Origin: a virus
Length of the DNA stretch: 46,178 bases
Strand: one strand, 5' to 3'
IMG/VR virus record: IMGVR_UViG_3300035681_000035
Location: 1-46,178 of that record
Shown here: in pieces, positions 33,272 to 46,142 of the stretch
Layout of the letters: each line of letters starts with the position of its first letter
How positions within the stretch are numbered: position 1 is the stretch's first letter
Notes under the pieces: model-generated
Told to the model about the DNA's origin: nothing
Seen by the model: the letters and a program-made list of their open reading frames with translations, nothing else
Database searches by the model: none
Made by a program: the position numbers and the translations under genes

Positions 33272-35782
33272 ATGGCCGGAGTTGAATGCGGTAAAATTGA
33301 TATCAGCAAATTATCTGAAGATGAAATTATATCTGTAGGAGATAAACTATGGGTTAAAGCGGATGTAGATGAAAAGATCTATATCTGGAGAGATAAACCT
33401 AATGTAGTAATTAAATTTAGTGACTCTTGTGTAACCACAATATGTGATGATCAAGTTGATATTTTACCATCTTTATTATTGATGTCTACAGCATTAGAGA
33501 CTACTAAAAAAGCCACAGATGATGATGGTGGTGAAAATAATGTTAATGAGGATAATGCTAGAGATAAAAAAGCTAAAACATCTTGTGTATTAGATCCACA
33601 ATTATTAAAAGGTGCTCAACAGAGATTAGACGGCCACAGTATTAATAATCATGGATATCAGCCCGCTGCTATTATGCCAGCAGCTGCTGTTATTCCAATG
33701 AAAAGTAATATTAAGCTATATGGTCCATATGCTTCTTCTAATTTTGGTAATAGTGCTGGTGGCACACAAGTTAGTACTGATACCGATTTATGTCCTTGGG
33801 TTTTTGGATCTATAGACGCTATGAATGCTGCCGGTAGATCAATGGTTGAATCTTCGGCTATAGGTTTAATTAAAAGCGAAACAGGCTCAGTTACTGCTCC
33901 AGGATTACCCAATATTGCTGGTCTTGGTTTTACAGTTGGTTCGGCTGGTCCTAATCTAAGTAATATTAGTTTTACATTTGGATCTTCTGGTATTACTACA
34001 AGCTATGAATTTAGAACCTTTACACCCAAGTTTGGAGGATTGAATAGACACTTTATAGATAAATTCAAATCTATTGCTAAAAATAGACAAACACAAATTA
34101 AATTTTTAAGATCAAACCAGATCAACCAAAATAAAATCAATCGTAAAATTGAAAAATATAAAAGAAATAATAAGAAGCCTAATGCCGTACAATCTCCAGG
34201 TAGACAATATTCTCTACAAAGAGTAATAATGGGTGAAATTTATGATTGGCAGTACCACAATGGGAGTATAGGACAAAGAACTGTTGTTGGTACTGATACT
34301 CTCTCTAAGAGTGTTGCTGAAATGATTTATGATTATGATAAAAAAGCATACATGAGTTTTGATGGTTTATTTGGCCCATTATCTGTTAAAGGAGATGGTG
34401 GATTACCTCGTTATGCCAGTTTTGATGCTAATTCCCATAAATCATCTCCTATAGCACCTCAACCACCATTTACCGTTAGTGGAGATTGTAGCAATAAGTC
34501 ATTCATCCATGAACAATATAATGTAGAAATTACACAAGATTATAATAATCCTTTAACTAATGATTTTGGCGATGATGAACACCATCATACGGGCTCTGGT
34601 CATGGCAATGTTATAGATATTATTGGTCGTGAATCTACCATACCAGAAAGTGGTATTATTAGAAATTTATACCATCCTGATAATACAGATAGAAATTCCG
34701 ACGATTATCGGTTTTTAGGTATGAGAGGACCCATTATTTTACATAGTTGGGGATATGACTTAGATGGTAAGCCTGTACCTAATGAAGTAGATAGCGACGA
34801 TAATGCCAAAGTGGGTGTCTTTAAAAATACCCAACTAAAAGATAAATTCTTACCTGATTGGCTAACAAAACCAGCCACATGGCCAGCCGCACCTATTGAT
34901 TTGAGATTTGATAGAGAAAGAGGCTTATGGGTTAGTCCACAATCTTATCGTATCATAGTTGCAAAAATTATTGATACTGTAAATTGCTATGGTGAAGGTA
35001 AGGCTGTTATAGTTCCATATGGGAAAAAACTCTTTGATAAAGAAGGAGTGGAGATAAATCCAAAATTTGATGACAAATGCGGTCCCGGTAAAGAAAAACA
35101 AGAATATGAATGGATATTAGTTAATATAGGTCCTTGTGATGATATTAGTAGTAGTAGTAGTAATGATTGTGCTGGTGGTATAGAGGTTATCACTGGATTA
35201 TCTTTAACATCAGAAGGATTAGTAGCTACTCGTAAAAGAGTTATAGTGTCTTGTTATGCTGATATTGATCCCATAACCATTAGCACAACAGACTGCAATA
35301 GTTCCTCTTCTTCTAGTAGCAGTTCTTCTAGTAGTAGTAGTAGTTCTAGTAGTAGTAGTAGTAGTAGTAGTAGTAGTAGTAGTAGTAGTAGTAGTAGTAG
35401 TTCAAGTAGTAGCAGTAGTAGTTCATCGAGTTCATCGGAAGAATCCTATGATGCATCTATTATGATTCAAGTTGTAGATAGAATTGGTAAGAGACATAAT
35501 ATAGATGAATTAGTATATGCTTATTTTGATACATTAACAGAAAAATATATAGTATTAGATAAATATTCTGAGCCTATTACTCCTACTGTATATGGATCAT
35601 ATGTTCCACTAGATGCTACTATGGGCATACTCACAGTAGAATATAGTACTGGTATAGATTATTGTACAGATGGTATTGTAACAGGAACAGAAGTAACTGT
35701 TGCTAATAAACTTAAATTATCTACCAATTGCGCATCAGCACCTGCTATTGCTATTAAAATGGAAAGAACAAAGAAAGAATAA
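33272..35782 (+). CDS. Large tail protein with 46-serine linker
   Basis: The 836-residue protein has an N-terminal beta domain (residues 1-65, MAGVECGKIDISKLSEDEI, GDKLWVKADVDEKIYIWRD), an acidic linker (about 87-103), a large middle region with HHHTGSGHG and a basic helix-like patch near residues 265-305, then a smaller five-serine run near residue 624. Residues 677-722 are 46 consecutive serines, followed by a 114-residue beta-rich C-terminal domain (SIMIQVVDRIGKRHN onward). The poly-Ser stretch would act as a long flexible spacer displaying the last domain. Upstream context suggests a tail-tip or fibre role. AAGGA precedes the ATG. Confidence 0.6.
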   Translation: MAGVECGKIDISKLSEDEIISVGDKLWVKADVDEKIYIWRDKPNVVIKFSDSCVTTICDDQVDILPSLLLMSTALETTKKATDDDGGENNVNEDNARDKKAKTSCVLDPQLLKGAQQRLDGHSINNHGYQPAAIMPAAAVIPMKSNIKLYGPYASSNFGNSAGGTQVSTDTDLCPWVFGSIDAMNAAGRSMVESSAIGLIKSETGSVTAPGLPNIAGLGFTVGSAGPNLSNISFTFGSSGITTSYEFRTFTPKFGGLNRHFIDKFKSIAKNRQTQIKFLRSNQINQNKINRKIEKYKRNNKKPNAVQSPGRQYSLQRVIMGEIYDWQYHNGSIGQRTVVGTDTLSKSVAEMIYDYDKKAYMSFDGLFGPLSVKGDGGLPRYASFDANSHKSSPIAPQPPFTVSGDCSNKSFIHEQYNVEITQDYNNPLTNDFGDDEHHHTGSGHGNVIDIIGRESTIPESGIIRNLYHPDNTDRNSDDYRFLGMRGPIILHSWGYDLDGKPVPNEVDSDDNAKVGVFKNTQLKDKFLPDWLTKPATWPAAPIDLRFDRERGLWVSPQSYRIIVAKIIDTVNCYGEGKAVIVPYGKKLFDKEGVEINPKFDDKCGPGKEKQEYEWILVNIGPCDDISSSSSNDCAGGIEVITGLSLTSEGLVATRKRVIVSCYADIDPITISTTDCNSSSSSSSSSSSSSSSSSSSSSSSSSSSSSSSSSSSSSSSSSSSSSSEESYDASIMIQVVDRIGKRHNIDELVYAYFDTLTEKYIVLDKYSEPITPTVYGSYVPLDATMGILTVEYSTGIDYCTDGIVTGTEVTVANKLKLSTNCASAPAIAIKMERTKKE
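35300..35437 (+). repeat. Poly-serine codon repeat with 18 perfect AGT units
   Basis: All 46 codons here are serine codons. The centre, 35348-35401, is 18 uninterrupted AGT triplets; the flanks mix AGT, AGC, TCT, TCC, TCA and TCG. The mixed flanks show selection for serine itself, while the pure AGT core is a microsatellite able to change length in frame. Confidence 0.95.

Positions 35783-46142: not shown

Follow-up and report, generated by a model that had tools for sequence, protein, structure and literature searches.

A putative GT60-based mucin-type O-glycosylation system encoded by large tailed phages

Known systems and the phage locus

Mucin-type O-glycosylation is initiated in protists by enzymes of family GT60 (PMC8724618; PMC3769586), one of which, the Skp1 enzyme of Dictyostelium, acts in the cytosol (PMC8724618). 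Among phages, the virion proteins of mycobacteriophages are glycosylated by phage glycosyltransferases (Freeman et al. 2023, as summarised in PMC12619734), and the same summary places the glycans at the C-termini of capsid and tail-tube subunits. Both phenomena are thus already known, and glycosylated phage virions have in general been rarely documented. A 2025 survey of large aquatic phages described four core glycosyltransferase groups, with no mention of mucin, threonine or serine (PMC12619734). In the open-access literature searched, which was limited, no account of a mucin system based on GT60 and HtrL-GT2 enzymes in phages was found, nor anything relevant on mucin-like phage proteins.

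The DNA analysed here, referred to as the window, is a virus record of 46,178 bases from a tailed phage, and its region 33272-46142 had been predicted from gene content and gene order to encode a virion O-glycosylation system. Comparison with the protist GT60 pp-alphaGlcNAcT systems of Trypanosoma cruzi and Dictyostelium (PMC8724618, PMC3769586) revealed a DxH-type initiator, candidate acceptors dense in Thr, Ser and Pro, and putative further enzymes for extension, including a bifunctional one, a feature shared with the Skp1 pathway. The predicted phage system differs in belonging to a bacterial virus, in having phage proteins as candidate acceptors and in presumably operating in the cytosol rather than in the Golgi. 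An HtrL-GT2 partner and a CmcI-like methyltransferase are found on the phage side and not in the protist systems of these two papers. The animal GT27 polypeptide GalNAc-transferase (ppGalNAc-T) system provides the nearest solved fold for the phage initiator and likewise involves dense mucin domains; however, the phage enzyme is about 12% identical to it and no ricin lectin domain was seen. As far as the summary in PMC12619734 describes it, the mycobacteriophage system is set apart from the present one, in which dense Thr-Pro or poly-Ser tracts occur in large accessory proteins together with a GT60 initiator. Phage XacN1 resembles the window phage in encoding a GT60 enzyme (ORF334), an HtrL-GT2 enzyme (ORF330) and Thr-Pro tracts, and at least two glycoproteins, given without protein names in the accessible part of the report, have been detected in its virions (PMC5852040). 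In that same part, the enzyme is not linked to mucin-like tracts and ORF330 is not listed as a glycosyltransferase (PMC5852040).

Gene order and enzymes of the locus

All features of the original prediction were recovered as open frames (Table 1), as were the two convergent operons it had described, a minus-strand run from 46142 to 37680 meeting a plus-strand run at about 37,685. The tail setting that had been assumed was borne out by the tape-measure and terminase genes located upstream; tail-tip-region genes come after the tape-measure gene and lead into the 33272-46142 region. The order tail-tip-like protein, mucin-like gene and glycosyltransferase operon was found again in related contigs, where several phages have the mucin-like gene flanked by the tail-tip gene on one side and the enzyme operon on the other, and this recurring layout suggests that the gene arrangement is more than chance. 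A DNA search of the region against named phages gave no match. A 55,075-base contig (IMGVR_UViG_3300036719_004687; loci L002, L003 and L025) carries the window genes at 100% identity and reaches beyond the window.

Table 1. Positions and supporting evidence for the genes discussed in the text
Coordinates	Strand	Feature	Basis
2881-4908		Terminase	
16577-28060	+	Tape-measure protein, 3,827 aa	PF10145, 5e-21
33272-35782	+	Poly-Ser tail-tip-region protein, 836 aa; candidate acceptor	Open frame
35786-36475	+	Mucin-like protein, 229 aa; candidate acceptor	Open frame, composition
36483-37691	+	DAD-motif protein; possible GT-A enzyme, unproven	Open frame
37680-38711	-	GT4-type glycosyltransferase	PF00534, 1e-8
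38708-39307	-	CmcI-like / Methyltransf_24 SAM methyltransferase; optional capping enzyme (putative)	PF13578/PF04989 just below cut-offs
39300-40316	-	Putative GT-B-like transferase	No profile match; relatives in HtrL loci
40277-41560	-	Core enzyme 1, GT60 polypeptide HexNAc-transferase homologue	PF11397, 1e-68
41535-43169	-	Core enzyme 2, HtrL_YibB with C-terminal GT2-like domain	PF09612, 9e-15
43147-43626	-	Small protein	Between repeat protein and GT genes; kept in close clade
43620-46142	-	N/G/S/T-rich repeat protein, 840 aa; possible further acceptor	Sequence, composition

The GT60 resemblance proposed for one of the enzymes was confirmed by profile search with PF11397, the Pfam family of GT60 (232.9 bits against a curated cut-off of 21), and the protein matched phrog_24687 at 3.7e-169. 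Its DxH motif, D100-S101-H102, was kept in 157/157 aligned relatives with residues at the motif position (DSH in 151, DGH in 3 and DAH in 3). The presence of DxH instead of DxD sets GT27 and GT60 apart from other GT-A families (PMC7185993). Structure prediction pointed in the same direction: the 38 best PDB matches of the AF2 model (pLDDT 86.7) were all ppGalNAc-Ts (Foldseek, E down to 6.7e-10), the enzymes that start mucin-type O-glycosylation in animals and apicomplexans. The model thus depicts a GT-A fold close to GT27, its TM-scores of about 0.5 supporting the fold and not the specificity.

The adjacent HtrL-GT2 protein scored 55.4 bits with the HtrL_YibB profile (cut-off 24.1), which was matched in 19 of 19 relatives. 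Its AF2 model displayed two tandem GT-A domains (pLDDT 88), with a pTM of 0.58 because the domain arrangement is uncertain. The best PDB matches of this model were the two-domain enzymes LH3, LARGE1, chondroitin polymerase and COLGALT1 (Foldseek), with global TM-scores so low that the architecture alone is supported. Among 80 viral loci fetched with HtrL-GT2 as query, GT60 shared the locus in 66 (54 of 62 after removal of near-duplicates), the methyltransferase was present in 31 and relatives of the 39300-40316 family in 28. This distribution is that of a two-enzyme core, GT60 and HtrL-GT2, with exchangeable tailoring enzymes. Both core genes are carried by the isolates XacN1, RAS14 and CM1; in XacN1 the locus, which has a carbamoyltransferase and a GT9 gene among its members, is preceded by genes of the baseplate wedge.

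The original prediction counted at least four glycosyltransferase-type genes in the region. Three were identified by profile (PF00534, PF11397 and PF09612), the HtrL protein counting as one gene despite its two modelled GT-A domains, and two more candidates, encoding the DAD-motif and 39300-40316 proteins, gave no reliable match in profile and PDB searches, so that their assignment to a family was given up. The DAD-motif gene does lie seven bases from the mucin-like gene, as had been noted, but its proposed identity as a glycosyltransferase found no reliable profile or PDB match. Relatives of this protein were found in the 100% identical contig and in no other, and in locus L005 its position is held by a protein distantly related to that of 39300-40316. 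The CmcI-like character of the methyltransferase is made likely by its relatives, 12 of 15 of which match PF04989 (RMNT_CmcI; best match 1.5e-7), the window protein scoring 21.9 bits against a cut-off of 23.2. In two loci (L079, 7311-9683; L081, 7299-9665) a CmcI-like methyltransferase (residues about 14-210) is fused to the N-terminus of HtrL-GT2 (about 232-791), an arrangement that links methylation with this pathway. Given these fusions and an occurrence in 31 of 80 loci, methyl capping of the glycans is plausible as an optional rather than a general feature.

Mucin-like tracts and their association with the enzymes

The serine run reported for the poly-Ser protein comprises exactly 46 residues (aa 677-722, nt 35300-35437). 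AGT accounts for 32 of its 46 codons, so slippage has probably been partly responsible for its expansion. In this protein and its homologues, a single slot with conserved sequence on either side is filled by poly-Ser in the window, L004 and L005, by Thr-Pro repeats plus Ser in L026 and L027, and by interrupted stretches of Ser in L009; the tract differs in chemistry from one homologue to the next and retains its hydroxyl groups. The mucin-like protein fitted its description, with 30% Thr, 17% Ser and 17% Pro; a syntenic Thr/Pro-rich gene occurs in L004, L005, L009, L012, L026, L027 and L032, and the protein is about 45% identical to its counterparts in L004, L005 and L027. At the other end of the region, the 43620-46142 protein is rich in Cys at its N-terminus, carries long N/G/S/T repeats of the TFNGSSENNGTV type and is possibly a beta-solenoid appendage; profile searches with it gave no family match, and L004 has a much longer, weakly similar frame at this place.

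Proteins with Ser/Thr-rich tracts were present in all 15 fully read records, amounting to 81 in total and often reaching at least a thousand residues. A few of them match lectin-like, protease or virion-protein families, in keeping with a nature as appendages, and the majority belong to no family. Clustering of the acceptors at the enzymes was dropped as a general rule, since 18 of the 81 tracts lay within 15 kb of the enzymes versus 14.4 expected; it holds only in the close clade of the window, and across whole records neighbourhood alone does not pinpoint the acceptor. Of the original proposal that the glycans sit on the tail tip, the part designating Ser/Thr-rich virion proteins as acceptors was retained, but with so many unclustered tract proteins several virion proteins probably serve as acceptors, in addition to any at the tail tip.

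About a dozen Thr-Pro-rich ORFs were observed in XacN1 (L691-L693, L024; 83-100, 124-133, 235-237, 249-262 and 272-280 kb), some of them beside tail sheath genes and a structural protein, their membership of the virion being putative; ORF350 and ORF369-372 are examples of Thr-Pro ORFs in this phage. No tail fibres were seen by the XacN1 authors (PMC5852040), and several unannotated XacN1 proteins may be glycosylated appendages. In some other GT60-bearing phages (L065, 1-1383; L089, 1-1530), Ser/Gly/Thr repeats of SSGTSG type replace Thr-Pro.

The motif TPTxTPT was searched as a degenerate DNA codon motif in 34 records picked for HtrL-GT2 and not for their Thr-Pro content, and in 50 control records sampled mostly by polymerase motif, none of which contains PF11397. 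It was found in 31 of the 34 HtrL-GT2 records, with up to 120 copies, versus two of the 50 controls, with one copy each. With controls of at least 40 kb, which differ from the HtrL records in lineage and somewhat in GC, lineage-matching being limited to a small isolate set, the comparison was 31/34 versus 2/32 (Fisher P=8e-13) and the density 23.9 versus 0.06 per 100 kb. The pattern read backwards was about zero in both sets, indicating that the motif excess reflects coding content and not base composition. The 34 records represent 31 lineages at 80% HtrL identity, 29 of which are motif-positive; the three records devoid of the motif are all possibly fragments, and two have loci that closely resemble each other. 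Likewise, of 62 non-redundant HtrL loci 35 contained Ser/Thr-rich ORFs, against 0 of 120 loci centred on a polymerase. Among isolates, the GT60-bearing XacN1, RAS14 and CM1 contain 51, 22 and 22 copies of the motif, respectively, versus zero in eight tail-sheath relatives without PF11397, including jumbo phage vB_EcoM_G17 (Asteriusvirus).

A reverse scan, starting from Thr-Pro repeats, detected PF11397 in 7/120 neighbourhoods and 6/50 records, versus 0/119 and 0/50 for Ala-Pro repeats. This enrichment is modest because many Thr-Pro contigs are short, and Ala-Pro loci, being higher in GC, were no longer relied on as the main control. PF11397 was missing from 44 of 50 viral contigs with Thr-Pro repeats, and from five of the ten measuring at least 60 kb; Thr-Pro tracts therefore also occur without PF11397. 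The combination of GT60 with mucin-like proteins recurs in dozens of other large phages, and such proteins are rare or absent in phages that lack the enzyme.

The tracts could alternatively be unglycosylated low-complexity linkers whose association with the enzymes stems from a shared lineage or habitat. Such an origin would agree with the AGT slippage in the poly-Ser run, with the tracts present in contigs without PF11397 and with their lack of positional clustering at the enzymes. However, the association spans 31 lineages and is repeated in separate isolates compared with tail-sheath relatives, the tract chemistry swaps in one slot while the hydroxyl content stays, and PF11397 occurs in 0/50 Ala-Pro repeat records, which together make this explanation improbable.

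Proposed pathway and remaining alternatives

A phage-encoded, cytosolic mucin-type O-glycosylation system was retained as the best explanation of these data, with a probability of roughly 0.75. The proposal that a phage GT60 enzyme O-glycosylates Ser/Thr-rich virion proteins is favoured by the fold match, the enzyme-tract association, the swapping of tracts and the glycoproteins of XacN1, and was amended in that acceptors are probably not confined to the tail tip. Phages possessing both the enzyme and mucin-like proteins probably bear mucin-type sugars as a coat on parts of the particle. From the evidence above we infer the identity of acceptors and sugars, the order of reactions and the function of the coat, as follows. 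The soluble GT60 enzyme would put HexNAc on Ser/Thr of dense hydroxyl-rich virion tracts in the cytosol, before assembly, using host UDP-HexNAc as donor; the sugar would most likely be GlcNAc from UDP-GlcNAc. Its acceptors would be the Thr-Pro mucin-like protein, the poly-Ser tract of the tail-tip-region protein and possibly others. HtrL-GT2 would then lengthen the first sugar, the GT4-type and 39300-40316 enzymes would contribute further lineage-specific sugars, and the CmcI-like enzyme would add an O-methyl cap, a role for which XacN1 might use its carbamoyltransferase instead. In mucins, clustered glycans keep tracts extended and protease-resistant. On tail appendages, the glycosylated phage tracts may act as a coat or as hydrated spacers that are stiff and resist proteases; clustered glycans would there hold binding domains at a distance and shield the tail.

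A role of the enzymes in changing a polysaccharide or lipid of the host surface, for superinfection exclusion or serotype change, would account for the GT60 relatives found in many bacterial chromosomes, and both the GT4-type and the HtrL_YibB family typically belong to polysaccharide gene sets. On the other hand, the window ORFs that were read (a non-exhaustive survey) included no membrane flippase, polyprenyl transferase or lipid-linked enzyme, and the location in the tail region, the GT60 fold and the tract association point to a protein substrate, so that such a role appears very improbable. Least probable of all is glycosylation of phage DNA (hydroxymethyl bases, as in TET/TAGT phages) with unrelated Ser/Thr-rich proteins: literature quoted in PMC12619734 describes glycosylated DNA as common among large phages and the C-terminal HtrL domain has a weak PF20691 TAGT match in 2 of 19 relatives (0.005), but the window HtrL protein has none, the GT60 enzyme matches polypeptide GalNAc-transferases and not DNA glucosyltransferases, Tet_JBP was detected in 0 of 34 records (by a search for this enzyme and not for 5hmC/5hmU synthesis genes, run without positive control), and DNA modification leaves the enzyme-mucin-tract association unexplained.

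Extending mucin-type glycosylation beyond the window, it is somewhat probable that widespread large tailed phages make true mucin domains by means of their own GT60 initiator, a two-domain extender and exchangeable caps. This broader reading also implies that many Thr-Pro-rich tail or baseplate proteins would be glycosylated in the bacterial cytosol, that the trait would be viral and prokaryotic too, and that mucin-type O-glycosylation is maybe not a eukaryotic invention. If true, dozens to hundreds of large aquatic phages and some isolated ones would share a mucin-type system, and a two-gene signature would predict glycoproteins from sequence and indicate their acceptors. Bacterial-virus homologues of mucin initiators would become usable for enzymology, and the system would bear on the ways in which phage adhesion devices are shielded or lengthened as well as on the origin of the GT27/GT60 lineage. 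The isolates XacN1, RAS14 and CM1, together with the raw mass-spectrometry data of XacN1 deposited as PXD008065 (PMC5852040), make the idea testable at once.

Relatives of PF11397 were also found in many bacterial chromosomes. In those of Burkholderiaceae (L629-L646: Burkholderia, Paraburkholderia, Trinickia and Cupriavidus), a relative is common and has no HtrL partner. A 1.3 Mb contig of Jiulongibacter sediminis (L618, 5981-10839) displays a Thr-Pro-rich gene between two PF11397 genes, with an HtrL homologue nearby, and this locus may be what is left of an integrated phage or else a bacterial counterpart of the phage system. Ser/Thr-rich genes adjoin PF11397 genes in bacterial MAG contigs as well (L641, 6481-8019; L662, 2-262; L663, 10042-10518). 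Overall, a Ser/Thr-rich tract was located near a PF11397 gene in 7 of 80 bacterial loci, and these gene neighbourhoods suggest that PF11397 enzymes in bacteria may likewise act on mucin-like proteins.
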